The notes under the pieces were generated by a model. The model was not told the DNA's origin and searched no databases. It saw only the letters and a list, made by a program, of their open reading frames with translations. A program made the translations under genes and the position numbers. Shown here in pieces: positions 373 through 63,919 of a DNA stretch of 64,000 bases. Positions within the stretch are counted from its first letter, which is position 1, and every line of letters starts with the position of its first letter. The stretch comes from Fragum whitleyi (Eukaryota; Mollusca; Bivalvia; Cardiida; Cardiidae): assembly GCA_948146395.1 (NCBI GenBank), contig OX411547.1, positions 28,643,114 to 28,707,113 of the forward strand. The letters run 5' to 3'.

Positions 373-1723
373 AACGACTTTTTTCTAAAGAGGATTAATT
401 TCTATTGAGCACTTGCGTAATGTGCATAATGGTAGTTATGCTCATATTATTTACGATGCGACCTCTTCATTCATGTGAAATATATAGTTTTTAGCTCCAC
501 TGGCTGAAGGGATGGCAGAGAGTTAGTGCGTACATTTGTAAACTTTTCTTTAAACATCTTCTCCTAAACTAATAGGTGGATCTTGATGAAACTTTGCCAC
601 AATCTTCCTTGGTTAGCCCTCTTCTAAAGTTAATCAAGAAATTTGGATTGACCTCCAATTATGGACATGGCAGTGAGGGGCTTATTTTTTTAGCCTGTAT
701 ATTTGAACAACATCTCCTGAACCATTGGGCCAATTTCAATGAAACTTTACCAAAATGTTCCTGGGTAGACCCTCTTCTACAGCCCCATGCCAAAAGTGAG
801 TCAAGTTTTATAATGGCGGCGCATAGTTGAAAAAATTTAAACAAACTTTAACAAAGGAACTTACCCTCTGATGATTTGGAATTGACTTTTAAAATGTTGT
901 TGCTCATTAGTTTTAAGCATCTACTAGCAAACAATGGTGAGGTTATCTGTGTTGGAGCTCTGATTAAACAATAATGAGACATCAGTCAAGGCATGGTGGA
1001 ATTTGTCTTTGATGTCTTTGACACCATGTATCAGGTAAAATATAATTATCACGGACTACTCCCAACAATTTCAACGAATTTCATTTTCAGATAAATCAGG
1101 GTCCTTTGCTGTTCAGCTGAGTCGAATTTTAAATCCCCATGATTCCATTCCTCTTAGATCTTGGGTGATAAAAATGGGCATAATCCTATTTGAAGAGTCT
1201 GAGATTGATTTCATTATTCTAAGCCCCTCGATGACAAATCTGTTCATCTTCTGTTTTAATTTACACTTTGAGAATATGTTTTCCCCCCTAAACAATCCAA
1301 TTTTTTAATTCTTTGTCATGCGGTGTATTCCAACACAATATTTCAAAACACATCAAGCAAAAACATTCACTTTTGTTGCTCTAAAAATCAGCTTCCAAGC
1401 TAAAAATATTTCTTCAATTGTATCTCTATTCCCTTTTAATTTTGAATTACACAAAACCAAACACTCAAGTTTATCTATAGATTTGGATACTTCCCTGGCT
1501 TATTATCCACTCACCAACATTTAAAAATATCCCATTTTATCAAGCTAGGTCAGTCCTTTTTTGAGAGTAAATAAAACTCACATATGTAAAACTTAAAGCG
1601 CTGAAAAACTTCAATACACAATAAATATTACAAGAAATAGTACACACCAATCTGAAAATAGACCAAACATACTTATTTTATCATGTAAACTTTGCATTGA
1701 GTGGTTTAACCCAGATAACATTC

Positions 1724-4170
1724 TTTTTAGCTCACCTGAGCAAAACGTGCTCAAGTGAGCTATTGTGATCACCTTTTGTCCGTCGTCCGTCCTCGAGTCA
1801 TCCGTCAACAATTTCTTTAAACAACATCTCCTCCTAAACTACTCGGCCAATTTTAACCAAACTTGGCAGAAATGTTCCTTAGGTGGTCCCCTTTAAGAAT
1901 TGCTAAAAGAATTGAAATCGGTGAAAAACTCTGGTTGCTATGGCAACCAAAGTTAAAAATTTAAGAAAATCTTCAGCCTTGAAATTTGGCATGGATGATC
2001 AGCTTATAGACCTTAATAAAAATAGCTAAAATCTTATCTGTAGGGCCACTAGGTGCGGAGCACCAGGGGGAGGGGGTAGTACTTTGATGAAAATTTTGTA
2101 ATCTTTAACCTTTTTCTTCTTCTGAACCAGGAGTCCTACAGATTTGAATATTGGCATTGATGATCAGCGTATGGACCGTTATAAAAATAGCTATAAATGG
2201 AGGATCAGCTCATAGACCTTAATAAAAATAGCTAAAATCATGACTGTAATGCCACCAGGTGCGGAGCACCAGGGGGGGGGGGGGTAGTACTTTTGTGAAA
2301 ATTTTGTAACTTTAATCTTCATCTTCTAATGAACCAGGAGCCCTACAGACTTCAATATTGGCATGGATGATAAGCATATGGATCTAAAATAAAATAGCTA
2401 AAATCATGAATGTAGGGCCACCAGATGCGGAGCATTAAGGGGAAGGGGGTAGTACTTTGGATCAATTTTGAAATCTTTAACCTTATTCTTCTCCTGGATC
2501 AGGAACCCTACAGACTTGAAAATTGTCATGGGTGATCAATATATTGACATTAATAAAAATAGCTAAAATCATCACTGTAGGGTCACCAGGTGCTGAGTGT
2601 CTTGGGGAGGGGGTAGTACTTTGGATAATTTTTGCTCGGCTGTTTTCGGAGAAAACCTGAGGTATTGCTATAGCCTTGGTGTCGTCGTCGTTCTCGTCGT
2701 TGTTGTCGTCGTCGTGCGAAAACTTTGACATTTTGTAATAACTTTTGAATGATTTGTGATAGGGTTTTCATATTCCACATGATGATTGCCTGGGACAAGG
2801 CCTTTCTGTTGGTACCAAGTTCAAGGTCATCAGTCAAGGTCAAGGTCATACATCAAGGTCAAACTTGTGAAAAAAATGCAAAAAGTTTGACAAATTGCCA
2901 TTACTTTTGAATGGTTAGTGATAGGGCCTTCATATTTCACATGATGATTGCCTTGGACAAGGCCTTTCTGTTTGTAACAAGTTCAAGGTCATCAGTCAAT
3001 GTCAAGGTCATTTTTCAAGGTCAAACTTGTGAAAAAATGCAAAAACTTTGACATATTGCAATAACTTTTGAAAGGTAAGTGATAGGGTCTTCATATTTCT
3101 TATGATGATTACCTTGGACAAGCATTTTCTGTTGGTACTAAGTTCAAGGTTATCAGTCAAGGTCATTTTCCAAGGTCAAACTTGTGAAAAAAATGCAAAA
3201 AACTTTGACAAATTGCCATAACTTTTGAATGGTTTGTTATAGGGCCTTCATATTTCACATGATGATTGCCTTGGACAAGGCCTTTCAGTTGGTACCTAGT
3301 TCAAGGTCATCAGTCAAGGTCAAGGTCATTTTTCAAGGTCAAACTTGTGAACAAAACTGCAAAAACTTTGACATATTGCAATTACTTCTGAATGGTAGGT
3401 GATAGGGTCTTCATATTTCACATGATGATTGCCTGGGACAAGCTCTTTCTGTTAGTACTAAGTTCAAGGTCATCAGTCAAGGTCAAGGTCATTTTCCTAA
3501 GTCAAACTTGTGAAAAAACTGCAAAAACTTTGACATTTTTGTAATATCTCTGGTTCTACTGAAGACATTCACATGAAACTTGACACACTTATTCAGCATC
3601 CAAAGGGCAACCTTTTCTTTCAAGGGGATAACTTTTGAAACATTTTCTGCAAATTGTGTCCCTTTTTCTACTTAGTTTTTTTCACCATCCATTAGTTATT
3701 TTACCATCCAGCACTTACAGCCGAGTGTAGGCACCCGTAGGCGGTGCTCTTGTTGAAATCTTTAAACTTCTTCTAATGAACCAGGAGTCCTACAGACTAG
3801 AAAATTGTTATGGATGATCAGCATATGGACATTAAATGAATTAGCTAAAATCATGACTGTAGATTCACCAGGTGCAGAGCATCTTGGGGGAGTGCTTTGT
3901 TGAGAAGTTTGAATCCCTACAGCCTTTATATTTGAAATGGATTGATCAACTCAGTCTGTATATCTGGCATAGATTAGCTGAGCACAGACCTTTTATGAAA
4001 AAAGCTTAGATAAATAATGACCAGGGGAGGAGCAGAGGGGGGGGGAGGATTATTTCAAATGTTATCTGATTGATTAAGTGAAAATCTCTTTTTCTGTGGT
4101 TGCATGGACATACCAAGGTAATGAAGCTTTTTTCTCAGGTGAGCGACCCTGGGCCAACGGCCCTCTTGTT
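1724..4170 (+). mobile_element. Helentron-like element, array unit 1
   Basis: 5' end TTTTTAGCTCACCTGAGC with stem AGCTCAC/GTGAGCT and inner stem GAGCA/TGCTC. A GTCCGTCGTCCGTCC stretch follows at 1778. Near the 3' end CAGGTGAGC (4136) is the inverted match of the 5' end, then hairpin GGGCC-AAC-GGCCC (4151-4163) and TCTTGTT (4164-4170). Modules carry the phrase CACCAGGTGCGGAGCACCAGG. Confidence 0.65.
2630..3754 (+). mobile_element. Nested Helentron-like element (TTTTCGGAGAAAACC family), unit 1
   Basis: 5' hairpin TTTTCGGAGAAAA, then a GTCGTCGTC/GTTGTTGTC tract, five modules of about 157-163 bp rich in TCAAGGTCA, then GCCGAG, hairpin GGCACC ... GGTGC and TCTTGTT. It lies inside the larger element of the same unit. 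Confidence 0.65.
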
Positions 4171-5116
4171 AATTTTACCCTTGAGGTATACTAATATAAT
4201 ATTTATAGCACCACCATTAAAAAACTTGACTCACTTATGGCATGGTGCTGTAAAGTTGTTCAAGAAATTTGGATTGACCTCCATACATAGGTGTGGCAAG
4301 GCAGCTTAACCATTGTGCAAATTTCAATGAAACTTTACCAGAATGTTCTTTAGGAGACCCTCTTCTAATGTTCTTCAGGAAATTTGGATTGACTCGGAAA
4401 TATGGGCGTGGCAGGATGGGCTTATTTTGAGCCCAAATCTTTGAACATCATCTTAACCATTGGGCCGATTTCAATGAACCTTTACCAGAATGTTCCTTGG
4501 GTGACCCTCTTCTAAAGTTGTACAAGGAATTTGGACTGACCCCAAAATAAGGGCATGGCAGAGCGGGTTTAATTTTTAAGCCCAAAATCTTTGCAAGACA
4601 TCTCCTCCAGAACCCTTTTGCTGATTTCAATGAAACTTTATAAGAATGTTCTTCGAGTGACCCTCTTCCAAAGTTGTTCAAGAAATTTGAATTGATCCCA
4701 AAATACAGGCGTGGAATGGCAGTGCTTATTTTGAGCCCGAAATCTTTGAATGACATCTCCTCCTGAACCATTAGGCCGATTTCAATGAAACTTTACCATT
4801 ATATACATTGAGTGACCCTCTTTTAAAGTTGCTCAAGAAATTTGGATTGACGGCAAAATATAGGCGTGACAGGGCAGACTTATTTTGAGCCCAAAATCTT
4901 TGAACAACTTCTCCTCCTGAAGTCCCATTTTATCAAGCTAGGTCAGTCCTTTTTTGAGAGTAAATAAAACTCACATATGTAAAACTTAAAGCGCTGAAAA
5001 ACTTCAATACACAATAAATATTACAAGAAATAGTACACACCAATCTGAAAATAGACCAAACATACTTATTTTATCATGTAAACTTTGCATTGAGTGGTTT
5101 AACCCAGATAACATTC

Positions 5117-7579
5117 TTTTTAGCTCACCTGAGCAAAACGTGCTCAAGTGAGCTATTGTGATCACCTTTTGTCCGTCGTCCGTCCTCGAGTCATCCGTCA
5201 ACAATTTCTTTAAACAACATCTCCTCCTAAACTACTCGGCCAATTTTAACCAAACTTGGCAGAAATGTTCCTTAGGTGGTCCCCTTTAAGAATTGCTAAA
5301 AGAATTGAAATCGGTGAAAAACTCTGGTTGCTATAGCAACCAAAGTTAAAAATTTAAGAAAATCTTCAGCCTTGAAATTTGGTATGGATGATCAGCTTAT
5401 AGACCTTAATAAAAATAGCTAAAATCTTATCTGTAGGGCCACTAGGTGCGGAGCACCAGGGGGAGGGGGTAGTACTTTGATGAAAATTTTGTAATCTTTA
5501 ACCTTTTTCTTCTTCTGAACCAGGAGTCCTACAGATTTGAATATTGGCATTGATGATCAGCATATGGACCGTTATAAAAATAGCTATAAATGGAGGATCA
5601 GCTCATAGACCTTAATAAAAATAGCTAAAATCATGACTGTAATGCCACCAGGTGCGGAGCACCAGGGGGGGGGGGTAGTACTTTTGTGAAAATTTTGTAA
5701 CTTTAATCTTCATCTTCTAATGAACCAGGAGCCCTACAGACTTCAATATTGGCATGGATGATAAGCATATGGATCTAAAATAAAATAGCTAAAATCATGA
5801 ATGTAGGGCCACCAGATGCGGAGCATTAAGGGGAAGGGGGTAGTACTTTGGATCAATTTTGAAATCTTTAACCTTATTCTTCTCCTGGATCAGGAACCCT
5901 ACAGACTTGAAAATTGTCATGGGTGATCAATATATTGACATTAATAAAAATAGCTAAAATCATCACTGTAGGGTCACCAGGTGCTGAGTGTCTTGGGGAG
6001 GGGGTAGTACTTTGGATAATTTTTGCTCGGCTGTTTTCGGAGAAAACCCGAGGTATTGCTATAGCCTTGGTGTCCTCGTAGTTCTCGTTGTTGTTGTCGT
6101 CGTCGTGCGAAAACTTTGACATTTTGTAATAACTTTTGAATGGTTTGTGATAGGGCTTTCATATTCCACATGATGATTGCCTGGGACAAGGCCTTTCTGT
6201 TGGTACCAAGTTCAAGGTCATCAGTCAAGGTAAAGGTCATACATCAAGGTCAAACTTGTGAAAAAAATGCAAAAAGTTTGACAAATTGCCATTACTTTTG
6301 AATGGTTAGTGATAGGGCCTTCATATTTCACATGATGATTGCCTTGGACTAGGCCTTTCTGTTTGTAACAAGTTCAAGGTCATCAGTCAATGTCAAGGTC
6401 ATTTTTCAAGGTCAAACTTGTGAAAAAATGCAAAAACTTTGACATATTGCAATAACTTTTGAAAGGTAAGTGATAGGGTCTTCATATTTCTTATGATGAT
6501 TACCTTGGACAAGCATTTTCTGTTGGTACTAAGTTCAAGGTTATCAGTCAAGGTCATTTTCCAAGGTCAAACTTGTGAAAAAAATGCAAAAAACTTTGAC
6601 AAATTGCCATAACTTTTGAATGGTTTGTTATAGGGCCTTCATATTTCACATGATGATTGCCTTGGACAAGGCCTTTCAGTTGGTACCTAGTTCAAGGTCA
6701 TCAGTCAAGGTCAAGGTCAAACTTGTGAACAAAACTGCAAAAACTTTGACATATTGCAATTACTTCTGAATGGTAGGTGATAGGGTCTTCATATTTCACA
6801 TGATGATTGCCTGGGACAAGCTCTTTCTGTTAGTACTAAGTTCAAGGTCATCAGTCAAGGTCAAGGTCATTTTCCAAAGTCAAACTTGTGAAAAAACTGC
6901 AAAAACTTTGACATTTTTGTAATATCTCTGGTTCTACTGAAGACATTCACATGAAACTTGACACACTTATTCAGCATCCAAAGGGCAACCTTTTCTTTCA
7001 AGGGGATAACTTTTGAAACATTTTCTGCAAATTGTGTCCCTTTTTCTACTTAGTTTTTTTTCACCATCCATTAGTTATTTTACCATCCAGCACTTACAGC
7101 CGAGTGTAGGCACCCGTAGGCGGTGCTCTTGTTGAAATCTTTAAACTTCTTCTAATGAACCAGGAGTCCTACAGACTAGAAAATTGTTATGGATGATCAG
7201 CATATGGACATTAAATGAATTAGCTAAAATCATGACTGTAGATTCACCAGGTGCAGAGCATCTTGGGGGAGTGCTTTGTTGAGAAGTTTGAATCCCTACA
7301 GCCTTTATATTTGAAATGGATTGATCAACTCATTAAAGAAAACTTTAAAAGTTTCAGACTCAGCCTGTATATCTGGCATAGATTAGCTGAGCACAGACCT
7401 TTTATGAAAAAAGCTTAAATAAATAATGACCAGGGGAGGAGCAGAGGGGGGGGGAGGATTTTTTCAAATGTTATCTGATTGAATAAGTGAAAATCTCTTT
7501 TTCTGTGGTTGCATGGACATACCTAGGTAATGAAGCTTTTTTCTCCGGTGAGCGACCCTGGGCCAACGGCCCTCATGTT
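5117..7579 (+). mobile_element. Helentron-like element, array unit 2
   Basis: Same build as in unit 1. The 3' hairpin GGGCC-AAC-GGCCC is intact, but the terminal motif reads TCATGTT instead of TCTTGTT (7573-7579). Confidence 0.62.
6020..7133 (+). mobile_element. Nested TTTTCGGAGAAAACC element, unit 2
   Basis: Same ends as in unit 1, finishing GGTGCTCTTGTT. One module lacks the short stretch between two TCAAGGTCA sites near 6716, a 12-16 bp internal deletion shared with unit 3. Confidence 0.62.
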
Positions 7580-8525
7580 AATTTTACCCTTGAGGTGTAC
7601 TAATATAATATTTATAGCGCCACCATTAAAAAACTTGACTCACTTATGGCATGGTGCTGTAAAGTTGTTCAAGAAATTTGGATTGACCTCCATACATAGG
7701 TGTGGCAGGGCAGCTTAACCATTGTGCAAATTTCAATGAAACTTTACCAGAATGTTCTTTAGGAGACCCTCTTCTAATGTTCTTCAGGAAATTTGGATTG
7801 ACTCGGAAATATGGGCGTGGCAGGGTGGGCTTATTTTGAGCCCAAATCTTTGAACAACATCTTAACCATTGGGCCGATTTCAATGAACCTTTACCAGAAT
7901 GTTCCTTGGGTGACCCTCTTCTAAAGTTGTACAAGGAATTTGGACTGACCCCAAAATAAGGGCATGGCAGAGCGGGTTTAATTTTTAAGCCCAAAATCTT
8001 TGCAAGACATCTCCTCCAGAACCTTTTTGCTGATTTCAATGAAACTTTATAAGAATGTTCTTCGAGTGACCCTCTTCCAAAGTTGTTCAAGAAATTTGAA
8101 TTGATCCCAAAATACGGGCGTGGAATGGCAGTGCTTATTTTGAGCCCGAAATCTTTGAATGACATCTCCTCCTGAACCATTAGGCCGATTTCAATGAAAC
8201 TTTACCATTATATACATTGAGTGACCCTCTTTTAAAGTTGCTCAAGAAATTTGGATTGACGGCAAAATATAGGCGTGACAGGGCAGACTTATTTTGAGCC
8301 CAAGATCTTAGAACAACTTCTCCTCCTGAAGTCCCATTTTATCAAGCTAGGTCAGTCCTTTTTTGAGAGTAAATAAAACTCACATATGTAAAACTTAAAG
8401 CGCTGAAAAACTTCAATACACAATAAATATTACAAGAAATAGTACACACCAATCTGAAAATAGACCAAACATACTTATTTTATCATGTAAACTTTGCATT
8501 GAGTGGTTTAACCCAGATAACATTC

Positions 8526-10994
8526 TTTTTAGCTCACCTGAGCAAAACGTGCTCAAGTGAGCTATTGTGATCACCTTTTGTCCGTCGTCCATCCTCGAGT
8601 CGTCCGTCGTCCGTCAACAATTTCTTTAAACAACATCTCCTCCTAAACTACTCGGCCAATTTTAACCAAACTTGGCAGAAATGTTCCTTAGGTGGTCCCC
8701 TTTAAGAATTGCTAAAAGAATTGAAATCGGTGAAAACTCTGGTTGCTATGGCAACCAAAGTTAAAAACTTAAGAAAATCTTCAGCCTTGAAATTTGGCAT
8801 GGATGATCAGCTTATAGACCTTAATAAAAATAGCTAAAATCTTATCTGTAGGGCCACTAGGTGCGGAGCACCAGGGGGAGGGGGTAGTACTTTGATGAAA
8901 ATTTTGTAATCTTTAACCTTTTTCTTCTTCTGAACCAGGAGTCCTACAGATTTGAATATTGGCATTGATGATCAGCGTATGGACCTTTATAAAAATAGCT
9001 ATAAATGGAGGATCAGCTCATAGACCTTAATAAAAATAGCTAAAATCATGACTGTAATGCCACCAGGTGCGGAGCACCAGGGGGGGGGGGGTAGTACTTT
9101 TGTGAAAATTTTGTAACTTTAATCTTCATCTTCTAATGAACCAGGAGCCCTACAGACTTCAATATTGGCATGGATGATAAGCATATGGATCTAAAATAAA
9201 ATAGCTAAAATCATGAATGTAGGGCCACCAGATGCGGAGCATTAAGGGGAAGGGGGTAGTACTTTGGATCAATTTTGAAATCTTTAACCTTATTCTTCTC
9301 CTGGATCAGGAACCCTACAGACTTGAAAATTGTCATGGGTGATCAATATATTGACATTAATAAAAATAGCTAAAATCATCACTGTAGGGTCACCAGGTGC
9401 TGAGTGTCTTGGGGAGGGGGTAGTACTTTGGATAATTTTTGCTCGGCTGTTTTCGGAGAAAACCCGAGGTATTGCTATAGCCTTGGTGTCCTCGTCGTTC
9501 TCGTTGTTGTTGTCGTCGTCGTGCGAAAACTTTGACATTTTGTTATAACTTTTGAATGGTTTGTGATAGGGCTTTCATATTCCACATGATGATTGCCTGG
9601 GACAAGGCCTTTCTGTTGGTACCAAGTTCAAGGTCATCAGTCAAGGTAAAGGTCATACATCAAGGTCAAACTTGTGAAAAAAATGCAAAAAGTTTGACAA
9701 ATTGCCATTACTTTTGAATGGTTAGTGATAGGGCCTTCATATTTCACATGGTGATTGCCTTGGACAAGGCCTTTCTGTTTGTAACAAGTTCAAGGTCATC
9801 AGTCAATGTCAAGGTCATTTTTCAAGGTCAAACTTGTGAAAAAATGCAAAAACTTTGACATATTGCAATAACTTTTGAAAGGTAAGTGATAGGGTCTTCA
9901 TATTTCTTATGATGATTACCTTGGACAAGCATTTTCTGTTGGTACTAAGTTCAAGGTTATCAGTCAAGGTCATTTTCCAAGGTCAAACTTGTGAAAAAAA
10001 TGCAAAAAACTTTGACAAATTGCCATAACTTTTGAATGGTTTATTATAGGGCCTTCATATTTCACATGATGATTGCCTTAGACAAGGCCTTTCAGTTGGT
10101 ACCTAGTTCAAGGTCATCAGTCAAGGTCAAGGTCAAACTTGTGAACAAAACTGCAAAAACTTTGACATATTGCAATTACTTCTGAATGGTAGGTGATAGG
10201 GTCTTCATATTTCACATGATGATTGCCTGGGACAAGCTCTTTCTGTTAGTACTAAGTTCAAGGTCATCAGTCAAGGTCAAGGTCATTTTCCAAAGTCAAA
10301 CTTGTGAAAAAACTGCAAAAACTTTGACATTTTTGTAATATCTCTGGTTCTACTGAAGACATTCACATGAAACTTGACACACTTATTCAGCATCCAAAGG
10401 GCAACCTTTTCTTTCAAGGGGATAACTTTTGAAACATTTTCTGCCAATTGTGTCCCTTTTTCTACTTAGTTTTTTTCACCATCCATTAGTTATTTTACCA
10501 TCCAGCACTTACAGCCGAGTGTAGGCACCCGTAGGCGGTGCTCTTGTTGAAATCTTTAAACTTCTTCTAATGAACCAGGAGTCCTACAGACTAGAAAATT
10601 GTTATGGATGATCAGCATATGGACATTAAATGAATTAGCTAAAATCATGACTGTAGATTCACCAGGTGCAGAGCATCTTGGGGGAGTGCTTTGTTGAGAA
10701 GTTTGAATCCCTACAGCCTTTATATTTGAAATGGATTGATCAACTCATTAAAGAAAACTTTAAAAGTCTCAGACTCAGCCTGTATATCTGGCATAGATTA
10801 GCTGATCACAGACCTTTTATGAAAAAAGCTTAAATAAATAATGACCAGGGGAGGAGCAGAGGGGGGGGGAGGATTATTTCAAATGTTATCTGATTGAATA
10901 AGTGAAAATCTCTTTTTCTGTGGTTGCATGGACATACCTAGGTAATGAAGCTTTTTTCTCAGATGAGCGACCCTGGGCCAACGGCCCTCTTGTT
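8526..10994 (+). mobile_element. Helentron-like element, array unit 3
   Basis: Ends as in unit 1, with TCTTGTT at 10988-10994. The GTCC tract is longer (CGAGTCGTCCGTCGTCCGTC), showing slippage in that stretch between units. Confidence 0.62.
9436..10548 (+). mobile_element. Nested TTTTCGGAGAAAACC element, unit 3
   Basis: Same hairpins and five TCAAGGTCA modules as its counterparts, ending GGTGCTCTTGTT at 10548. Confidence 0.62.
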
Positions 10995-11939
10995 AATTTT
11001 ACCCTTGAGGTGTACTAATATAATATTTATAGCGCCACCATTAAAAAACTTGACTCAGTTATGGCATGGTGCTGTAAAGTTGTTCAAGAAATTTGGATTG
11101 ACCTCCATACATAGGTGTGGCAGGGCAGCTTAACCATTGTGCAAATTTCAATGAAACTTTACCAGAATGTTCTTTAGGAGACCCTCTTCTAATGTTCTTC
11201 AGGAAATTTGGATTGACTCGGAAATATGGGCGTGGCAGGGTGGGCTTATTTTGAGCCCAAATCTTTGAACAACATCTTAACCATTGGGCCGATTTCAATG
11301 AACCTTTACCAGAATGTTCCTTGGGTGACCCTCTTCTAAAGTTGTACAAGGAATTTGGACTGACCCCAAAATAAGGGCATGGCAGAGCGGGTTTAATTTT
11401 TAAGCCCAAAATCTTTGCAAGACATCTCCTCCAGAACCTTTTTGCTGATTTCAATGAAACTTTATAAGAATGTTCTTCGAGTGACCCTCTTCCAAAGTTG
11501 TTCAAGAAATTTGAATTGATCCCAAAATACAGGCGTGGAATGGCAGTGCTTATTTTGAGCCCGAAATCTTTGAATGACATCTCCTCCTGAACCATTAGGC
11601 CGATTTCAATGAAACTTTACCATTATATACATTGAGTGACCCTCTTTTAAAGTTGCTCAAGAAATTTGGATTGACAGCAAAATATAGGCGTGACAGGGCA
11701 GACTTATTTTGAGCCAAAAATCTTTGAACAACTTCTCCTCCTGAAGTCCCATTTTATCAAGCTAGGTCAGTCCTTTTTTGAGAGTAAATAAAACTTACAT
11801 ATGTAAAACTTAAAGCGCTGAAAAACTTCAATACACAATAAATATTACAAGAAATAGTACACACCAATCTGAAAATAGACCAAACATACTTATTTTATCA
11901 TGTAACTTTGCATTGAGTGGTTTAACCCAGATAACATTC

Positions 11940-13874
11940 TTTTTAGCTCACCTGAGCTAAACGTGCTCAAGTGAGCTATTGTGATCACCTTTTGTCCGTC
12001 GTCCGTCCTCGAGTCGTCCGTCAACAATTTCTTTAAACAACATCTCCTCCTAAACTACTCGGCCAATTTTAACCAAACTTGGCAGAAATGTTCCTTAGGT
12101 GGTCCCCTTTAAGAATTGCTAAAAGAATTGAAATCGGTGAAAAACTCTGGTTGCTATGGCAACCAAAGTTAAAAAAAAATAGCTAAACTCTTATCTGTAG
12201 GGCCACTAGGTGCGGAGCACCAGGGGGAGGGGGTAGTACTTTGATGAAAATTTTGTAATCTTTAACCTTTTTCTTCTTCTGAACCAGGAGTCCTACAGAT
12301 TTGAATATTGGCATTGATGATCAGCGTATGGACCTTTATAAAAATAGCTATAAATGGAGGATCAGCTCATAGACCTTAATAAAAATAGCTAAGATCATGA
12401 CTGTAATGCCACCAGGTGCGGAGCACCAGGGGGGGGTAGTACTTTTGTGAAAATTTTGTAACTTTAATCTTCATCTTCTTATGAACCAGGAGCCCTACAG
12501 ACTTCAATATTGGCATGGATGATAAGCATATGGATCTAAAATAAAATAGCTAAAATCATGAATGTAGGGCCACCAGATGCGGAGCATTAAGGGGAAGGGG
12601 GTAGTACTTTGGATCAATTTTGAAATCTTTAACCTTATTCTTCTCCTGGATCAGGAACCCTACAGACTTGAAAATTGTCATGGGTGATCAATATATTGAC
12701 ATTAATAAAAATAGCTAAAATCATCACTGTAGGGTCACCAGGTGCTGAGTGTCTTGGGGAGGGGGTAGTACTTTGGATAATTTTTGCTCGGCTGTTTTCG
12801 GAGAAAACCCGAGGTATTGCTATAGCCTTGGTGTCGTCGTCGTTCTCGTCGTTGTTGTCGTCGTCTTGCGAAAACTTTGACATTTTGTAATAACTTTTGA
12901 ATGGTTTGTGATAGGGCTTTCATATTCCACATGATGATTGCCTGGGACAAGGCCTTTCTGTTGGTACCAAGTTCTAGGTCATCAGTCAAGGTAAAGGTCA
13001 TTCATCAAGGTCAAACTTGTGAAAAAAATGCAAAAAGTTTGACAAATTGCCATTACTTTTGAATGGTTAGTGATAGGGCCTTCATATTTCACATGGTGAT
13101 TGCCTTGGACAAGGCCTTTCTGTTTGTAACAAGTTCAAGGTCATCAGTCAATGTCAAGGTCATTTTCCAAAGTCTAACTTGTGAAAAAACTGCAAAAACT
13201 TTGACATTTTTGTAATATCTCTGGTTCTACTGAAGACATTCACATGAAACTTGACACACTTATTCAGCATCCAAAGGGCAACCTTTTCTTTCAAGGGGAT
13301 AACTTTTGAAACATTTTCTGCAAATTGTGTCCCTTTTTCTACTTAGTTTTTTTCACCATCCATTAGTTATTTTACCATCCAGCACTTACAGCCGAGTGTA
13401 GGCACCCGTAGGCGGTGCTCTTGTTGAAATCTTTAAACTTCTTCTAATGAACCAGGAGTCCTACAGACTAGAAAATTGTTATGGATGATCAGCATATGGA
13501 CATTAAATGAATTAGCTAAAATCATGACTGTAGATTCACCAGGTGCAGAGCATCTTGGGGGAGTGCTTTGTTGAGAAGTTTGAATCCCTACAGCCTTTAT
13601 ATTTGAAATGGATTGATCAACTCATTAAAGAAAACTTTAAAAGTCTCAGACTCAGCCTGTATATCTGGCATAGATTAGCTGATCACAGACCTTTTATGAA
13701 AAAAGCTTAAATAAATAATGACCAGGGGAGGAGCAGAGGGGGGGGGGGGAGGATTATTTCAAATGTTATCTGATTGAATAAGTAAAAATCTCTTTTTCTG
13801 TGGTTGCATGGACATACCTAGGTAATGAAGCTTTTTTCTCCGGTGAGCGACCCTGGGCCAACGGCCCTCTTGTT
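11940..13874 (+). mobile_element. Helentron-like element, array unit 4 (shortened)
   Basis: Both termini are present, but about 60 bp are missing near 12173 where AAAGTTAAAAAAAAATAGC replaces a module part. The nested element inside has also lost modules. Together these explain why this unit is about 530 bp shorter. Confidence 0.62.
12781..13425 (+). mobile_element. Nested TTTTCGGAGAAAACC element, unit 4 (module loss)
   Basis: Only two of the five modules remain: the sequence jumps at about 13160 from module 2 into the last TCAAACTTGTG stretch, a loss of about 470 bp, close to three modules. The ends are unchanged. Confidence 0.65.
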
Positions 13875-14625
13875 AATTTTACCCTTGAGGTGTACTAATA
13901 TAATATTTATAGCGCCACCATTAAAAAACTTGACTCAGTTATGGCATGGTGCTGTAAAGTTGTTCAAGAAATTTGGATTGACCTCCATACATAGGTGTGG
14001 CAGGGCAGCTTAACCATTGTGCAAATTTCAATGAAACTTTACCAGAATGTTCTTTAGGAGACCCTCTTCTAATGTTCTTCAGGAAATTTGGATTGACTCG
14101 GAAATATGGGCGTGGCAGGGTGGGCTTATTTTGAGCCCAAATCTTTGAACAACATCTTAACCATTGGGCCGATTTCAATGAACCTTTACCAGAATGTTCC
14201 TTGGGTGACCCTCTTCTAAAGTTGTACAAGGAATTTGGACTGACCCCAAAATAAGGGCATGGCAGAGCGGGTTTAATTTTTAAGCCCAAAATCTTTGCAA
14301 GACATCTCCTCCAGAACCTTTTTGCTGATTTCAATGAAACTTTATAAGAATGTTCTTCGAGTGACCCTCTTCCAAAGTTGTTCAAGAAATTTGAATTGAT
14401 CCCAAAATACGAGCGTGGAATGGCAGTGCTTATTTTGAGCCCGAAATCTTTGAATGACATCTCCTCCTGAACCATTAGACCGATTTCAATGAAACTTTAC
14501 CATTATATACATTGAGTGACCCTCTTTTAAAGTTGCTCAAGAAATTTGGATTGACGGCAAAATATAGGCGTGACAGGGCAGACTTATTTTGAGCCCAAAA
14601 TCTTTGAACAACTTCTCCTCCTGAA

Positions 14626-15468
14626 CCATAGGGCTGATTTCAATGAAACTTTACCAGAATGTTCCTTTGGTGATCCTTTTTGAAAGTTGTTGAATAAATT
14701 TGGATTGACCCCCAAATATGGGCGTAGCAGGCAGGGGCTTATTTAGAGCCCAAAATCTTTGAACGAATTATTCCCGAAATTTTTATTGGCCCATAAATAT
14801 GGGTTTGGTAGTGCGTGGCTGATATGAGCCCAAAATCTGTGAACGACATCTCCTAAATCACCGGGCTGGTTTTGATGAAACTTTACCAGAAGGTAACCCT
14901 TTTTAAAAAATTGTTTTCAAAATTTTGATTAGCCCATAAATGTGGGCGTGGTAGAGCAGTGCTTATTTTAAACCCAGAATCTTTGATCGACATCTCTTGA
15001 ACCACTGGCCTGATTGCAATGAAACTTTACCAGAATGTTCCTTTCATGACCCTTTTGAAAATTGTCTGCAAAATTTTGATTAGCAGATAAATATTGCCCC
15101 AGTAGGGCAGGGCTTATTTTGAATCTCCTCAGTAATGAAGTGGTGGGCAGGGTCTATTAGCAATTTAAGTTCTTGGCATAACATCTTCTCATCAACAATT
15201 AGGCAAATGTGAATGAAACATTGCCAGAAAGTTTCTTGGAAGAGATCCACTGGACCAATAGAATGCAGGTGAGCAATTTAGGGCCATCCTGGCCCTCTTG
15301 TTTAAAAGTGATATCTAAATAGGTTTCTTCCATGTAATTTTTCAAATTAGTTACATGAGTTTACTTCTGATAGCTTTGTATCAATTTTGATAAAGTCAGA
15401 ATTCATTCTGAATGCTGGTGACTTTCATTACCTTCTATTTTCAATATCTCTTTCAAATCTTGAAATAT
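14626..15468 (+). repeat. Diverged modules right of the array
   Basis: Four or five degenerate copies of the GAACCA...GGGC...GATTTCAATGAAACTTTACCAGAATGTTCC module, with GGGCGTGG(T/C)AG spacers. At 15266-15301 is a 3' terminus: CAGGTGAGC, hairpin GGGCCATCCTGGCCC and TCTTGTT. 15302-15468 shows nothing recognisable. Confidence 0.6.
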
Positions 15469-20516: not shown

Positions 20517-20766
20517 TGGATCTATATTGTTTTAGCCTTTGTCTTTACTGTGATATGTATTGATACCTCTGGTTTGACTTGAGGCCTTCACTTGAAACCT
20601 GACACACATGTTCATTATCAAAAGAGCAGCCTATACTATCAAGGGGGATAAATAGATGCATTTTGTGCAAATAAATGCACTTTTTGATTAAGATTTTTTT
20701 TATTCACTTAAGACACTCTCCAGCAGCCAACTGCCAAGCAAAGGCAAATGTAGGTGATGCTCTTAT
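20517..20766 (+). mobile_element. Degenerate hairpin-ended element, 3' part
   Basis: A module (GATACCTCTGGTTTGACTTG ... TGAAACCTGACACACATG, TATCAAGGGGGATA) and a worn 3' end, GGTGATGCTCTTATT. It belongs with the TTTTCGGAGAAAACC family. Confidence 0.45.
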
Positions 20767-22845: not shown

Positions 22846-23120
22846 TTATGCCCCCCATTGAATAAGAGGGGGTATATTGCTTCACACTTCTCGGTTGGTC
22901 GGTCAGTTGGTAGGTAGGTCGGTTGGTCCGTCAGTAGACCGAATTTTGTCCAGAGCATATCTCATAAAGTATGCAAGCTAGAATCAAGAAACTTCACAGG
23001 TAGATAGAGGAATTTTGCAGTGCACAAGAACCATAACTCTACTCATCATATTTTGTGAGTTATTGCCCTTTGATGATTGAAAAAGAATAGGCTACTGACC
23101 TGCTCTTATGGGGGACATAA
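22846..23120 (+). mobile_element. Helentron-like element (TATGCCCCCC family)
   Basis: 5' TATGCCCCCCATTGAATAAG with stem to GAGGGGG, then a GGTCGGTC/GTAGGTC tract and one module (ATCTCATAAAGTATGCAAGC, AGAAACTTCACAGG, GCAGTGCACAAGAACCATAA). The 3' inverted match is GGGGGACATA. The terminal hairpin is missing, so the copy is 3' truncated. Confidence 0.6.
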
Positions 23121-23782: not shown

Positions 23783-25246
23783 TATTATCCCCCGCCGTTT
23801 TCAGCGAGGGGATATAGTAATGCTCTCCGTCCGTCATTCCGTCCTTCCGTCACTAAACTTGTCCGGTGCATATCTCCTAGAGTATAATAGCTATCAACTT
23901 GAAACTTTATGGGTGGATAGATCTTATGGAGGAGAAGTGCAGTGCACAAGAACTACAACTCTTGCTTGCATAATTTTGGAGTTATTGCCCTTTGTTATTT
24001 TTAAGACTTAGATTTTGTCCGGAGCATATCTCCTAAAGTATAATAGCTATCAACTTGAAACTTTATGGGTGGATAGATCTCATGGAAGAGCAGTGCAGTG
24101 CACAAGAACTATAACTCTGGCTTGCATAATTTTGGAGTTATTGCCCTTTGTTAGTCCCCTACCGGTGTTCACACCGGAGGGGACTATAGGTTTGCCCTCC
24201 GTCTGTCCGTCCGTCTGTCCGTCCGTCTGTCCGTCCGTCTGTCCGTCTGTCCGCTCAAATCTTGATCCCGCGATAACTTAAAAACTAAGCAAGAGTTTTT
24301 GATGAAAGTAGGTATATGACTAGATGGCAATGTGTAGATTATGCACATCATTTTATTTTTGTTTTTCGACTTAAGTTGAGGTTGCTATGGTTACAGAAAT
24401 AGTGAAAATATGGCCAAAAATGGGATCCTGCGATAAGATAATAACTAAGCAAGCTAGTTTGATGAGACTTGGTATATGACTATATGGCAATGTGTAGATT
24501 ATGCACATCATTTTATTTTTGTTTTTAGACTAAAATTGTTGTTGCTATGGTTATGGAAATAGTGAAAATATGGCAAAAAATATTGGATCCTGCGATAAGT
24601 TAATAAGTAAGCAAGCTAATTTGATGAGACTTGGTATATGACTAGATGGCAATGTGTAGATTATGCACATCATTTTATCTTTGTTCTTTGACAAAAAGTG
24701 CGGTTGCTATGGTAACGGAAATAGTGAAAATATGGCAAAAAATGGATCCTGCAATAACTTAATAACTAAGCAAGCTAACTTGATGAAACCTGTTTTAAAA
24801 TGTAAAAAAATTTATAAGCCATGTTAGTCAGGGTGGTGATGCAGCAGTATTAATCACCTCCAGTGAAAGTTCTCATTTCTTACCAACAAGACTGAAGAAA
24901 AACATCTTGGATCAGACAAGGTAACTGTTATTGATACTATTTCTTGCATCTGTCTATTGCTTGCATGAATTGTATAGTGGGCACAGCAGAGACAACAACT
25001 CATGTAAGTCTTGTTTAACCCTTTCCAAAACAAGACCTGGTTTTGACGTCCCTGATAGAATTGGTGTGGGAAAACATTGAGACAAACAAAGCCGGTAGGG
25101 GACTTATGCCCATGTCCAACATGGCTCTTGTTATTTTAAAGACTTAGATTTTGTAGGAGCTTAATTTCTTGAAGTAGAACCCTTAATCTATTAGGCTTCA
25201 GTTTACTCGGCGGGGGATGGCCATGTCCAACATGGCTCTTGTATTT
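23783..25246 (+). mobile_element. Helentron-like element (ATCCCCCGCCG family) hosting a second element
   Basis: 5' hairpin ATCCCCCGCCG-TTTTC-AGCGAGGGGAT, a CTCCGTCCGTCATTCCGTCC tract, two 156-bp modules (ATCTCC at 23872 and 24028), then an inserted element (24155-25134). Its own right side follows: TATTAGGCTTCAGTTTACTC, GGCGGGGGAT, hairpin GCCATGT-CCA-ACATGGC and TCTTGT. Confidence 0.72.
24155..25134 (+). mobile_element. Helentron-like element (GTCCCCTACCGG family), nested
   Basis: 5' GTCCCCTACCGGTGTTCACACCGG, a long GTCCGTCCGTCT tract, four modules of about 160 bp (GCGATAACTTAAAAACTAAG, TATATGACTA, GTGTAGATTATGCACATCA), a non-repetitive part, then GCCGGTAGGGGAC (inverted match of the 5' end), hairpin CATGT-CCA-ACATG and TCTTGTT. 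It sits inside TTTGTT|ATTTTAAAGAC of its host with no visible target duplication beyond the shared GTT. Confidence 0.72.
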
Positions 25247-35464: not shown

Positions 35465-35639
35465 ATTTAATTTGCTATGTAAAACAATCCCAATGAGTAC
35501 CCACAAAATGAGATAAGATAAAATGCTAAATATTTCAAATTTGTGATTGCAACTTTTTCTTTTTCTCCAAAAGTACTTATTCTTAATGCAACTATCTGTA
35601 TCAAACTCTAAATTGGCCATAACTTTTAATTGGATTGAG

Positions 35640-42786: not shown

Positions 42787-42879
42787 GTGGAGAGTTTACT
42801 AGTTAAACAAAGTACAGATACCAGTCAACAAACTGGTCTGCTAGTGCTGGTATTGTACCTGTACCAGGAGACGGGGAAG
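42787..42879 (+). CDS. URB2: URB2 exon M
   Basis: 31 codons in phase 0/0, VESLLVKQST through LLVLVLYLYQETGK. The acceptor is GTATTGCAG and the donor GTGAGT. A repeat with a 25-bp perfect hairpin ends just upstream, and a hairpin-ended element starts about 20 bp downstream. Confidence 0.86.
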
Positions 42880-42901: not shown

Positions 42902-43395
42902 GTTTTTATATGCCGCCGAAGGTGGACATATATTGGTATCATATTCTTCACTGTCTGTATGTCTGTCCGTCCCGGTACCAAGTTCAAGGTCATCAGTCAA
43001 GGTCATTTTCAAGGTCAAATGTATGAAAAATTAAAACTCTAATATGGCTAAACTTTTGATATAGTCAGTGGTAGAGCCTTCATATTTCAAATAACAATTT
43101 TAATGATAAATCAAAACCCAAGGTATTATTATCACCTTGGTGTCATTTTGCTTCGGTGTTTGCATTAGTGTTTGCGTAGGCATGACTCACTTTAACTTTG
43201 GTCATATCCCTGTTGTTATTGAAGATATCTTCATGAAACTCGGCATGTGTGTTCATCATCATAAGAGCTATCTAGAATATCAAGGGGTGTAACTGTTGAG
43301 CAATTCTGCAAGAGTTATGCCCCCTTTTTGACTTAGATTTTTGCATTTACCAGCACCTGCAGCCGAGCATTTCATCCTTAGGTGGTGCTCTTGTT
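42902..43395 (+). mobile_element. Helentron-like element (TATGCCGCC family)
   Basis: 5' TATATGCCGCCGAAGGTGGACATA hairpin, GTCTGTATGTCTGTCC tract, a TCAAGGTCA module, then a CACCTTGGTGTCATTTTG module as in the TTTTCGGAGAAAACC family, GCAGCCGAGC, and GGTGGTGCTCTTGTT. It looks like a composite of two families. Confidence 0.6.
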
Positions 43396-44626: not shown

Positions 44627-44908
44627 TTATGCTCCCCTTTGAAGAAGAGGTATATTGCTTTGCACTTGTTGGTTTGTCCGTCCGTCTGTAGACCATTTAT
44701 TTTTCAGAGCATATCTCAAAAAGTATGCAAGCTAGAATCATGAAACTTCACAGGTGGATAGACCTCATTGCGGAGAAGCGTAGTGCACAGGAACCATAAC
44801 TCTACTCATCATTTTTTTTTGTGAGTTATTGCCCTTTATTGATAGACAAATAATAGGCTATTGATCTGCTTCTATGGGGGGCATAAACGTTTTACAAACA
44901 TCTCTTGC
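44627..44908 (+). mobile_element. Helentron-like element (TATGCCCCCC family), complete 3' end
   Basis: 5' TTATGCTCCCCTTTGAAGAAG, GGTTTGTCCGTCCGTCTG tract, one module, GGGGGGCATAAAC, hairpin GTTT-TAC-AAAC and ATCTCTTG. Confidence 0.65.
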
Positions 44909-44974: not shown

Positions 44975-45190
44975 AGTAGAGGGGGGTATAATGGTTTCAT
45001 ATTGTCTGTCTGTCTGTCTATTCGTCTGTCCCCATAAAGACCTATTGAGTTCTTTGTTTCCAGACTCTAACTCGAGTATGTAGTGACCTAGAATTATGTA
45101 ACTTTATACAGTTGTCCATGACACGTTGAAGTGCCTTATTGTTTTGGGGTCACAAAGGTCAAGGTTACAATTATACCTTGTTGGAAAATC
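44975..45190 (+). repeat. GTCTGTCTGTC repeat, copy 2
   Basis: AGAGGGGGGTATAATGG, GTCTGTCTGTCTGTC tract, TTTGTTTCCAGACTCTAACTC, then TTGGGGTCACAAAGGTCAAGG. See 18476-18690. Confidence 0.5.
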
Positions 45191-48135: not shown

Positions 48136-50417
48136 TTTTTTAGCTCACCTGAGCACGAAGTGCTCAAGGTGAGCTATTGGGATCGTAGAATGTGCGTCGT
48201 GCGACGTGCGTCGTCCACAATTTCTTTAAACATCTTCTCCTCCTAAACCAGTGGGCCAATCTTGATGAAACTTGGCAGGGATGTTCCTTGGGTCAAGCTC
48301 TACCAAAGTTGTTCAAATGAATGAAATCCACCCTTAACTTTCCCTTTACCCTTAACAAAAAGGGTGAAAATTTGAAAATCTTTCAAAATCTTCTTTTCTG
48401 AAACCAGAAGGCAGACAGCTTTCATATTTGGTATGTAGCATCATCTAGTGGACCTCTACCAAGTTTGTTCATATCAAGACCCTGGGGTCATATTTGGGCT
48501 TTGCCCGGGCCCAACCCTTTTTACATAGAATCAAAGAGCGAAAATCTTTAAAAATCTTCTTCTCTGAAACCAGATGGCAGACAGCTTTCATATTTGGTAT
48601 GTAGCATCACCTAGTGGGCCTCTACCAAGTTTGTTCATATCAAGACCCTTGGGTCATATTTGGGCTTTGCACAGGTGCATCCCTTTGTCTCTTATGAGCA
48701 CGAAGGGTAAAAAAATGAAAATCTTCAAAAATCTTCTTCTATGAAACCAGAAGGCAGACAGCTTTCATAATTGGTATGTAGCATCATCTAGTAGACCTCT
48801 ACCAAGTTTGTTCATATCAAGACCCTAGGATCATATTTGGGCTCCATCCAGGTGCAACCCTTTTTTTTATATAGAATCAAAGAGCGAAAATCTTTTAAAA
48901 TCTTTTTTAATCGAAACCAGAGGGCACACTGCTTTCATTTTTAGCTCCACTGGCTGAAAGCCACTGGGGCTATTGTCATGGCGTTGTGTCCGTCGTGCGT
49001 CCGTCCGTCTGTGCGTCCGTGCATCCGGTCGTAAACTTTTTCTTTAAAAATCTTCTCCTCAGAAACTACTGGATGGATTTCAACCAAACTTCACAGGAAT
49101 GATCCTTGGGTGACCCTCTTTCAAAGTTGTTCAAGAAATTTTGATCCAATGAAAAACATGGATTTAATGGGCGTGGCTAATTTCCAAATATGGTAAAAAG
49201 TGACTTTTCTCAGGGTCTAATTGATGGATACCAATAAAATTTTACATGACTGATCCTTGGGTGACCCTTAATCAGTCTACCAAAAATTATTTTGATCAGA
49301 TGAAAAATATGCATTTTATGGGCAGAGGTCATTTCTCTATATGTTATATAGTGGAAACTTTGAAAATCATTTTCTCTGAAACTAATTGATAGATATCAAC
49401 CAAATTTTACATGATTGATCCTTGGGTGACCCTTTATCAGTCTACCAAAAATTATTGTGATCGAATGAAAAATGTGTATTTTATTGGTGGAGGTCATTTC
49501 TCTATTTGTTATATAGTGGAAACTTTGAAAATCATTTTCTCAGAATGTAAGTGATGGAACTCAACCAAATTTCACAGGAATAATCCTTGAGTGATTCTTT
49601 ATCAGTCTTTTAAAAATTATTGTTAATGGATGAAAAATATGTATTTTATGGGCGGAGGTCATTTCTCTCTATTTTATATAGTGGAAACTTTGAAAATCAT
49701 TTTCTCAGAATGTAATTGATGGATATCAATCAAACTTCATTAGTATGATCCTTGGGTGAACCATTATCATGCAGCCAAAAATTATCGTGATTGGATGAAA
49801 ATTATGTCTTTTATTGGCGGAGGTCATTTCTCTATATGTTATAATAGTGGAAACTTTGAAAATCATTTCAACATAAATAGAACCCAAAATATCTAATAAA
49901 TCTAGTCAAAACTTTGATTACAAGAATTTCAAGCCTGTGGAGCGACTCAAGCCATTCATGGCTTTCTAGTTGGTATGCAGTATCATCTAGTGGGCCCCTA
50001 CCAAGTTTGTTCATATCAAGACCCTTGGGTCATATTTGGGCTCCACCCGGGCGCATCCCTTTCAGCTCATCTGAGCATGAAGGGTGAAAATATGAAACTC
50101 TTTCAAAATCTTCTTTTTTGAAACCAGTAGGCAGACAGCTTTCATATTTAGTATGTAGCATCATCTTATGGACCTTTTCCAAGTTTGTTCATATCAAGAC
50201 CCTGGGTTCACATTTGGGGTCCACCCGGGTGCATCCCTTTTTACATAGAATCAAAGAGCAAAAAGGCATATCTGTCTTGCTCTTTGTTGAAAACGTTCCA
50301 TGGTAGTGATCTTAAGCAATTATCTTCTTTTTGACATCTGCCTATGTAATTAATGTGATGTCCCAGGGGTCAAAGAGACTCAGGTGAGCGATCTAGGACC
50401 ATCTTGGTCCTCTTGTT
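48136..50417 (+). mobile_element. Helentron-like element (AGCTCACCTGAGC family) hosting another
   Basis: 5' TTTTTTAGCTCACCTGAGCACGAAGTGCTCAAGGTGAGCT, a complete nested stem, then GTGCGTCGTGCGACGTGCGTCGTCC and modules (CTTCTTTTCTGAAACCAGAAGGC, GACCCTTGGGTCATATTTGG). The 3' side is CAGGTGAGCGATC, hairpin GGACC-ATCTT-GGTCC (50396-50410) and TCTTGTT. The element 48938-49971 is inserted within one module. Confidence 0.75.
48938..49971 (+). mobile_element. TCTAGTT-ended Helentron-like element, nested
   Basis: 5' TTTTAGCTCCACTGGCTGAAAGCCACTGG, tract GTGCGTCCGTCCGTCTGTGC, six modules of about 160 bp. Then GCCTGTGGAGCGAC, hairpin AAGCCAT-TC-ATGGCTT and TCTAGTT (49965-49971). It interrupts GCTTTCAT / TTGGTATG of its host without a visible target duplication. 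Confidence 0.75.
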
Positions 50418-57602: not shown

Positions 57603-57605
57603 ATT

Positions 57606-59200: not shown

Positions 59201-59204
59201 TATT

Positions 59205-59445
59205 TAGCTTGCAGTTTTCGGAGAAAACTTATGGTATTGCAATAACTATGGCGTTGTTGTTGTCTTTTTCATGCGAAAACAGACATTTTGTGATATCTCT
59301 AGTTCTACTGCAGGCATTCACTTGAAACTTGGCACACATGTTCACCATTCACAGAACAACCTTTACTATCAAGGGGGATATCTCTAGATACATTTTGTGC
59401 AAATTATGCAGTTTTTCGACTTAGATTTTTATCCACAATCAAGCA
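59205..59445 (+). mobile_element. TTTTCGGAGAAAACC-family element, 3' truncated
   Basis: 5' TTAGCTTGCAGTTTTCGGAGAAAAC, GTTGTTGTTGTC tract and a module (GATATCTCTAGTTCTACTGC ... TTGAAACTTGGCACACATG). It is cut by SINE sequence from about 59450. Confidence 0.55.
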
Positions 59446-59449
59446 CTCA

Positions 59450-60358: not shown

Positions 60359-60367
60359 ATCCTTAAT

Positions 60368-62495: not shown

Positions 62496-63343
62496 TTTTT
62501 AGCTCCACTGGCTGAAAGCCACTGGGGCTATTGTCATGGCGTTGTGTCTGTCGTCCGTCTGGTCGTAACTTTTCTGTTAAAAACTTCTCCTCAGAAACTA
62601 CTGGATGAATTTCAACCAAACTTCACAGGAATGATCCTTAGATGACCCTCTTTCAAAGCTGTTCAAGAAATTTTGATCCAATGAAAAGCATGGATTTAAT
62701 GGGTTCGGCTAATTTCCAAATATGGTAAAAAGTGAGTTTTCACAGATTCTAATGGATGGATACCAATTAAATTTTACATGAATGATCCTTGGGTGACCTT
62801 TTATCAGTCTACAAAAAATCATTGTGATCGGATGGAAAATATGCATTTTATGGGCAGAGGTCATTTCTCTATTTGTTATATAGTGGAAACTTTGAAAATC
62901 ATTTTCTCAGAATGTAACTGATGGATATCAACCAAATTTCACTGGAATGATCCTTGAGTGACCCTTTATCAGTGTACAAAAAATCATTGTGATCGGATGA
63001 AAAATATGTATTTTATGGGCGGAGGTCATTTCTCAATATGTTAAATAGTGGAAACTATGAAAATCATTTTCTCAGAATGTAATAGATGGATATCAATCAA
63101 ACATTTTTTGTATGATCTTTTGGTGACCCATTATCATGCAGCCAAAAATATTTTGATATGGTGAAAAATATGTCTTTTAAGAGTGGAGGTCATTTCTCTA
63201 TTTGTTATATAGTTGAAACTTATAAAATCATTTTCAACATCAGTAGAACCCCAAATATCTAAAAATCTAGTCAAAACATTTACTTGTTTTTACAAGAATT
63301 TCAAGCCAGTGGAGCGACACAAGCCATTCATGGCTTTCTAGTT
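62496..63343 (+). mobile_element. TCTAGTT-ended Helentron-like element, copy 3
   Basis: 5' TTTTTAGCTCCACTGGCTGAAAGCCACTGG, tract GTCTGTCGTCCGTCTGGTCG, five modules. Then GCCAGTGGAGCGACAC, hairpin AAGCCAT-TC-ATGGCTT and TCTAGTT. Confidence 0.75.
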
Positions 63344-63919
63344 GCTTAGCTATTTTCGGAGAAAACCAGAGGTATTGATGTAGCCTTGGTGTCGTCGTCA
63401 TTTTCATTCAAAACTTTTGACATTTTGTGATTCTCAGGTTCTACTGAAGGCATGTACTTGAAACTTGACATACCTGTTCTCTATCAACCTATACCATCAA
63501 GGGAGATAACTCTATATGTTTCTCTTGCAAATTATTCCCCTTTTTTGACAAAGATTTTTATTCTCCAGGGGCATATTGTTTTTTTGCCTGTCTTTAGGTC
63601 TTAAAAAAACTTTATCATCGACCTTCTTATTTCACATGATAATTGTGTTGGGCAATAACTTTCTGTTGGTACCAAGTACAAGGTCATTAGTCAAAGTCAA
63701 ATTTTTTAGGCTGCACATTGAATAAAGTATTGCGACAGATTACAGAAGTGAATTAAGGTTTGCACATTGAATTAATTATTGCCACAGTCGACAGAATTGA
63801 TTGTATCAAACTCCTGCATGGCCGTGGCTGGGGCATTAGTGTTTCATATACACATCTTGATTATCCACTGTGCAGCAGCAAATAGTCAAGCGTGGGCACC
63901 CATAGGCGGTGCTATTGTT
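63344..63919 (+). mobile_element. Helentron-like element (TTTTCGGAGAAAACC family)
   Basis: GCTTAGCTATTTTCGGAGAAAACC starts directly after the previous element's TCTAGTT. The GTCGTCGTC tract is short. The 3' end has CAAGCGTGGGCACC-CATAGGC-GGTGC and TATTGTT. Confidence 0.65.

Follow-up and report, generated by a model that had tools for sequence, protein, structure and literature searches.

Repeat modules in the window

Within a 64,000-nucleotide stretch of the genome of the bivalve Fragum whitleyi (hereafter the window; G000:C5:28643114-28707113, within a 1.22-Gb assembly of 38 contigs), short mobile elements are crowded, and the tandem repeat modules that they carry were analyzed here. A sequence-only reading of the window had proposed that one hidden skeleton, a pyrimidine core followed after 25 nt, or sometimes 28 nt, by AAACTT or a relative, runs through nearly a dozen apparently separate repeat families and reflects one ancient module, perhaps once coding. 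A set of 25 modules was assembled from 10 consensuses of Tandem Repeats Finder (TRF) with array periods of about 150–177 bp (A_in, B, C, C3, D, Dp, E, Gin, K177 and C2) and from 15 pieces of the window, mostly first modules behind microsatellite heads, and these were assigned by eye to seven groups. A single gap-free frame fits the 25 modules of all seven groups over 50–70 bp. It reads roughly CATATCTC ... TGAAACTT, with AAACTT beginning 25 nt after CTC, and further columns are held in common: A at -9 in all 25 modules and, in the majority, A at -21 and at +9. Sites of the skeleton in the window are listed below.

708–757, plus strand: GCTCCACTGGC (C) module, group 1
1825–1874, plus strand: first module of the AGCTCACC (A) element, group 1
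48234–48283, plus strand: first module of the second A element (48142-50416), group 1
48390–48439, plus strand: BIV160-like module K177, a weak skeleton position
49368–49417, plus strand: inner module of the C2 element, which has a C head and a TCTAGTT tail
22955–23004, plus strand: TATGCCCCCC (F) module, group 2
44709–44758, plus strand: second F module, with the highest left-out score
23868–23917, plus strand: ATCCCC (D) module, group 2
31436–31485, plus strand: orphan module L31, group 2
32244–32293, plus strand: D-related (Dp) module, group 2
24431–24480, plus strand: GTCCCCTACCGG (E) module, group 3
2898–2947, plus strand: TTTTCGGAG (B) module, group 4
3542–3591, plus strand: last module type of the B element (B2), group 5
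43202–43251, plus strand: B2-type module, group 5
38301–38350, plus strand: first module of the TATGCTCCCC (G) element, group 6
38612–38661, plus strand: inner G module, group 6
45065–45114, plus strand: module of the GTCTGTC family (I), group 7

Related modules form a chain within group 1, and another within group 2. When the 10 TRF consensuses were aligned pairwise over their whole length, nine of the 45 pairs exceeded a z of 3 on the same strand and one (E and K177) did so in reverse, and 31 pairs remained below a z of 2. Because the gap costs gave long alignments, this comparison is too blunt to link most of the groups.

Recognition of the skeleton across groups

The main test used an ungapped 50-column profile from which the group under test had been left out, with 500 dinucleotide shuffles per module; groups 1 and 6 were left out jointly because G modules can be aligned with C modules. 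The place chosen by eye was the best place in 24 of the 25 modules, and at least 95% of the shuffles were beaten by 23 of them. In a weaker test, a two-block profile with a free gap of 15–40, again with the group left out and with 300 shuffles, a gap of 25 was picked in 17 of the 25 modules, as against 3.7% per gap in the shuffles; 17 modules beat 95% of the shuffles, two of them (C2 and B2_63) at other gaps. The GTCTGTC (I) module is weak in this second test, and none of its 500 shuffles was as good in the 50-column test; K177 fails the second test, and 18 of its 500 shuffles were as good in the first.

Left-out profiles were also run over the whole window, with the arrays of the other groups masked. 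In each of the seven runs, the held-out modules were placed within the first twelve, and further plus-strand sites were revealed at 59325, 20595, 35651, 25699 and 26445, which outranked the held-out modules in the runs for groups 3 and 7. One minus-strand site, 16033, was high in several runs. The full profile matched the window 120 times on the plus strand and three times on the minus strand, largely by construction, because that profile was trained on the window. The further sites found with left-out profiles are as follows.

59291–59340, plus strand: skeleton site outside the 25-module list
20561–20610, plus strand: skeleton site
35617–35666, plus strand: B-like skeleton site
25665–25714, plus strand: B2-like skeleton site
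26411–26460, plus strand: C2-like skeleton site

To delimit the core, whole groups were shifted at random 2000 times. Each of the six 10-column blocks between -40 and +19 scored above all of these shifts; the neighboring blocks -50..-41 and +20..+29 were weak (32 and 47 of the 2000 shifts were as high), and no other block showed an excess. Columns outside the two words originally noticed are conserved as well (0.482 versus 0.192±0.029 bits; 0 of 2000 shifts as high). The core is AT-rich, and monomer sizes are described in PMC8268682 as clustering near the nucleosome size, as would suit a core that converged without common descent under some constraint of structure, for instance the phasing of nucleosomes on ~160-bp arrays. 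Such a constraint would not be expected to place specific letters, namely CTC, A at -21, A at -9 and TGAAACTT, at fixed positions, and dinucleotide shuffles fail to reproduce them; this explanation is therefore considered unlikely.

Genome-wide occurrence and controls

In the whole genome, TATCTC-N10..40-TGAAACTT occurs 38,219 times, compared with 843 times for the reversed pattern, and the spacing was 25 in 91 of the first 100 matches listed (all of them on contig C1, and many belonging to family D). When only larger gaps were allowed, 3,811 occurrences stood against 471 reversed, and C-like modules with a run of CTCCTC made up many of the 100 matches listed. ATAACTC-N10..40-TGAAACTT occurs 3,059 times against 314 reversed; a second spacing class, 31, is found among the matches listed, so that N31 exists in another family of this genome.

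The column at -9, which is not part of the query, was read in 41 distinct strings picked by eye from listings of 100 matches. It is A in 40 of the 41 and in all 10 clusters that they form (five of which are single strings), and about half of these clusters are without evident relative in the window. As a control, distinct viral sites bearing the word pair at the same spacing have A at -9 in only 26 of 75 cases. Viral contigs were also scored: 120 contigs with the word pair at the skeleton spacing (1.08 Mb) gave 44 matches of at least 14 and five of at least 18, and 121 other viral contigs, with the words two bases further apart (1.05 Mb), gave five and one, a plain background. These controls indicate that the two words alone account for scores up to about 18 and not more. 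Only word-pattern matches were seen in the viral contigs, with no tandem array in the one contig inspected, and the phages searched with a D array gave no match.

Six 10-kb stretches of the genome were then scored with the full profile. Ten sites of at least 13 were found in four of the six stretches; Markov controls gave 2, 0, 2, 1 and 0. The best site, with a score of 35, lies in an array at L164:6418-6707, which is a 72% relative of the I and J modules (group 7); under the profile without group 7 this array still scores 29.5, 26.5 and 17.8, and its reverse strand -1.3.

In short, left-out profiles, group shifts and genome counts place the spaced frame where it had been read, above chance. 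That it joins apparently separate families holds for the seven groups, and less so within them, since groups 1 and 2 are chains of relatives and G aligns to C.

Carriers of the modules

A typical carrier consists of a head hairpin, a GTCC/CCGTC microsatellite, tandem modules of ~150–177 bp, and a tail hairpin followed by CTCTTGTT. By eye, the heads of families A to I show a 5' subterminal inverted repeat (subTIR) with a complementary inverted repeat and a GTCC/CCGTC-like run behind it; J has the microsatellite, and no head was recognized there. A 3' hairpin with CTCTTGTT was seen in A, B, C, D and E, and a TCTAGTT end in C2; the tail of F is clear only in a genome copy (L194), and by eye no tails were identified for G, H and I. 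Because these features match those given in PMC4067079 and PMC7492417, the carriers are Helentron-associated interspersed elements (HINEs), that is, non-autonomous Helentrons. Four of them illustrate the anatomy and its nesting.

2633–3754, plus strand: B HINE nested in an A module array, the first of ~3.4-kb units
23787–25242, plus strand: D HINE with head ATCCCCCGCC, microsatellite, modules and tail CATGGCTCTTGT
24153–25132, plus strand: E HINE inserted in a D module and complete, with head hairpin, microsatellite, modules and tail
48142–50416, plus strand: A HINE that carries BIV160-like modules and has a C2 element nested in it

When the E, B and C2 elements are removed between their predicted ends, D, A and K177 modules are made whole again; the sites are T-rich. 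Four empty sites made by joining the flanks align across the joint, with 1–6 gap bases among the best rows and no evident target duplication.

Several other features of these carriers were observed. The ~3.4-kb unit, an A element with its nested B element, is repeated in tandem at 1530-15123 as three long units about 98% identical and a shorter fourth. The D-E junction of 23787-25242 is found again at over a dozen genomic positions, and the nested D-E element seems to have moved as one unit. At L164:7133-7282, a HINE of only ~150 bp was recognized by eye, composed of a head hairpin, a CCGTC run, a truncated module GGCCATAACTTCTAAATC, a 3' subTIR, a hairpin and CTCTTGTT. All recognized HINE heads and hairpin-plus-CTCTTGTT tails in the window are on the plus strand; in the first 3.8 Mb of contig C1, 27 of 52 neighbors were alike in orientation, so that no bias was found there. 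The window may lie in introns of a plus-strand gene, as exon-like stretches were noticed by eye at 1-171 and 42787-42879; these two gave no Pfam match. A tRNA-like sequence at 30070-30138 (Rfam RF00005) is probably the head of a short interspersed nuclear element (SINE), and, judging from the repeats, similar SINE-like copies would be present elsewhere in the window.

Autonomous Helentron candidates

The domain PF14214 (Helitron_like_N) was present in all 150 places scored among 260 candidate places in the genome, with frames of up to 2628 aa. One of these belongs to a 16.7-kb element with family C ends, C12:50668619-50685360. Its head at 50668619 is followed by a microsatellite, modules, a 2469-aa frame with PF14214 and a tail ending at 50685360. 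The array behind the microsatellite comprises 7.6 modules of 155 bp, of C type, with eight profile matches, which score 13.7–21.7 under the profile without group 1 (the best on the other strand is 14.4). Compared with the C elements of the window, the best rows show identities of 78–87% for the head, 84–86% for the module and 92–97% for the tail, and the flanks of the element, once joined, match an A module over the junction at 93–94%. B-type modules are also present in the element, and an A HINE is inserted immediately ahead of its frame. In the family C lineage, therefore, an autonomous element carries the module array in its 5' region.

The second candidate, at C1:70078807-70094831, is bounded by ends of family A; 11.5 units of 145 bp precede its 2508-aa frame, and an F HINE is nested within it. 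A spacing of N31 can be seen by eye in this A-type array, which is not statistically recognized as skeleton. The array is rich in GGTCA-type words, and parts of a second copy of this candidate, nearly identical, lie on contig C13. The N-terminal parts of the frames of both candidates contain DUF6570 and a peptidase-like Pfam domain. A putative Rep/helicase partner with the same ends exists for family C, and a candidate also for the ends of family A, there with a different array.

These results bear on the reading given for several groups in PMC7492417, in which each HINE family captured its own unrelated satellite monomer; the skeleton would then be due to chance and AT-rich composition. The absence of similarity between groups outside about -50..+29, and the 31 whole-module pairs with low scores, agree with it. 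It is largely contradicted, however, by the cross-validation, in which left-out groups exceeded their dinucleotide shuffles, as well as by the group shifts, the fixed genome-wide spacing, the excess of A at -9 over the viral control and the same modules in an autonomous element, and we regard it as quite improbable. The repeats look like inherited parts of transposons rather than randomly acquired satellite DNA.

Spacing and coding potential

The sequence-only reading had taken the spacings of 25 and 28 nt, exactly one codon apart, as a sign that the module was perhaps once coding. In group 1, however, N28 and N31 reduce to N25, because ATCTTCTCCTCCT offers several anchors, one of them at 25; the codon difference is an anchor artefact within the CTCCTC run, and spacing classes of 28 and 31 as codon steps were rejected for this group by the anchor shift. 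A decayed coding repeat might otherwise be suspected from the local frames, which read alike in some families, from the C3 consensus, which has one frame without stops, and from a per-base chi-square for codon phase that is significant in four of 10 families (C, D, Gin and C3). Stops occur, however, in all three frames of nine of the 10 consensus modules, indels within families are multiples of 3 in only 63 of 601 cases, the phase signal disappears with columns as units (p 0.14–0.97), and conservation between groups shows no codon phase. The codon-position bias and the excess of 3-nt indels that had been suggested as checks were thus not found, a protein-coding repeat was rejected for lack of an open frame, codon-phase variation and 3-nt indels, and a coding past for the module is extremely unlikely.

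A structured RNA or ribozyme repeat was likewise unsupported: at gathering thresholds, Rfam recognized one tRNA in the window and no match for the modules, and the folding energies of eight modules were nothing unusual (z -1.7 to +1.0).

Origin and possible role of the core

The modules would all go back to a single ancient tandem array, of which they would be homologous units and which would belong to the 5' region of Helentrons (Helitron-like transposons of the rolling-circle kind). The autonomous order would be 5' hairpin, GTCC-like microsatellite, module array, transposase gene, 3' hairpin and CTCTTGTT; HINE families could have arisen from it by internal deletions in which head, microsatellite and array were kept and joined to the tail, and then may have diverged in almost everything but a core of 50–70 bp. 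This core would most likely be a cis-acting element that a lineage requires in order to remain active; from its place between the 5' end and the transposase gene, it may serve either as a promoter or enhancer of that gene or as a replication or transposition site. Taken as a whole, the scheme of one ancient Helentron 5' array, HINEs formed by deletion and a core kept as a cis-element is probably right. The earlier proposal of one ancient module behind the families is supported in this respect by the common frame, the left-out profiles, the shift test, the genome counts and A at -9.

Within families, the skeleton columns vary no less than the other columns (a lower value was obtained in only one of 10 families), whereas between groups, by the random-shift test, skeleton columns alone persist. 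As the core is kept by separate lineages and not by copies once inserted, we infer lineage-level selection on a putative cis-element, a promoter or a replication site. Modules could instead be kept for a host function, for example as transcription-factor sites: TCAAGGTCA, which we take to be a nuclear-receptor-like half-site, is abundant in B modules and occurs 53 times on the plus strand and once on the minus strand of the window (2700-3540 and other B arrays). The half-site lies outside the shared core, however, and cores in inserted copies are not preserved, so that conservation by the host appears very unlikely.

Several points weigh against the ancient-array explanation. All of the group frames, and the grouping itself, were first set by eye, and group 6 is not independent, as the G modules align to C modules. 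Modules H42 and J18 fail both left-out tests, and eight of the 25 fail the two-block test at 95% of shuffles. In the 50-column test, the reverse strand reaches the same 95% level in six of the 25 modules, and C526 scores higher in reverse; in the two-block test, five of 25 reverse strands pass, K177 most strongly. A single autonomous element with skeleton modules was read, that on contig C12, which itself has nested insertions, and the partners compared are those of families C and A. The 145-bp unit of the contig C1 candidate is not significant as skeleton (37 of 300 shuffles as good), and no empty site ties its head and frame into one element. Recombination that replaced blocks around a kept core could also mimic selection.

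Comparison with known systems

Parts of this situation are known from other bivalves. In the BIV160/Cg170/HindIII/CvA family, monomers of ~160 bp are described in PMC5139131 as divergent save for two conserved motifs. Compared with the published BIV160 primers, on which our comparison with BIV160/Cg170 rests, K177 matches at 20 of 25 bases (0 of 300 shuffles) and at 14 of 21 (8 of 300, and equally in reverse), and C2 matches one primer at 14 of 21 (0 of 300); no primer match beyond shuffles was obtained for the eight remaining TRF consensuses (A_in, B, C, C3, D, Dp, E and Gin). The pearl elements CvA, CvE and CvG, together with DTC84 and MgE, are similar by description, being modular bivalve elements with short arrays of ~160 bp (PMC7492417 and PMC5139131).

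The closest likeness is to Cg_HINE of the oyster Crassostrea gigas as described in PMC7492417: a 5' subTIR with inverted repeat, a GTCY/GTCC microsatellite, central repeats mostly of 140–180 bp in fixed orientation, a 3' subTIR with palindrome, and insertion into TT without duplication. There, one group of HINE monomers shares two segments (CL4 shares them with CL1, 2, 10 and 13), the repeats of groups 2 and 3 are called unrelated and independently acquired, and autonomous Helentrons could not be related to the oyster HINEs. The situation in the present genome is different, in that seven groups have one core and an autonomous element has C ends and C modules. The DINE-1/HINE and autonomous Helentrons of insects and mites, in the accessible part of PMC4067079, likewise have subTIRs, a 3' stem loop, a T-rich target, a microsatellite, central repeats and a Rep-helicase partner; unlike here, that part describes no core common to the central repeats of different families and no array of repeats conserved at the 5' side of autonomous elements.

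The sequence-only reading knew of no description of the module. HINE central repeats and the two-motif BIV160/Cg170 family are in fact published (PMC5139131 and PMC7492417), so that this statement stands only for the common core: a literature search by sequence strings found nothing, and we found no paper that ties all such families to one core or places the core in an autonomous Helentron, among sources of which subscription papers and supplements were largely outside reach.

The published choice for the origin of HINE tandem repeats, as given in PMC7492417, is between captured satellites and the element's own sequence. The core common to different families and the array before the autonomous frame favor the element's own sequence as the source of the repeats. 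A wider reading, to which we would give somewhat less than an even chance, is that the core is a conserved putative cis-acting control element of bivalve Helentrons, selected in active lineages since before the families split, and that the bivalve 'satellite library', with its BIV160-like and other ~160-bp monomers, consists in large part of debris of autonomous 5' regulatory arrays and not of captured satellites. The skeleton profile can be used on any mollusc genome, and the core makes possible an experiment on whether it drives transcription or transposition. The element on contig C12, for its part, supplies an autonomous candidate of the kind missing in the oyster.

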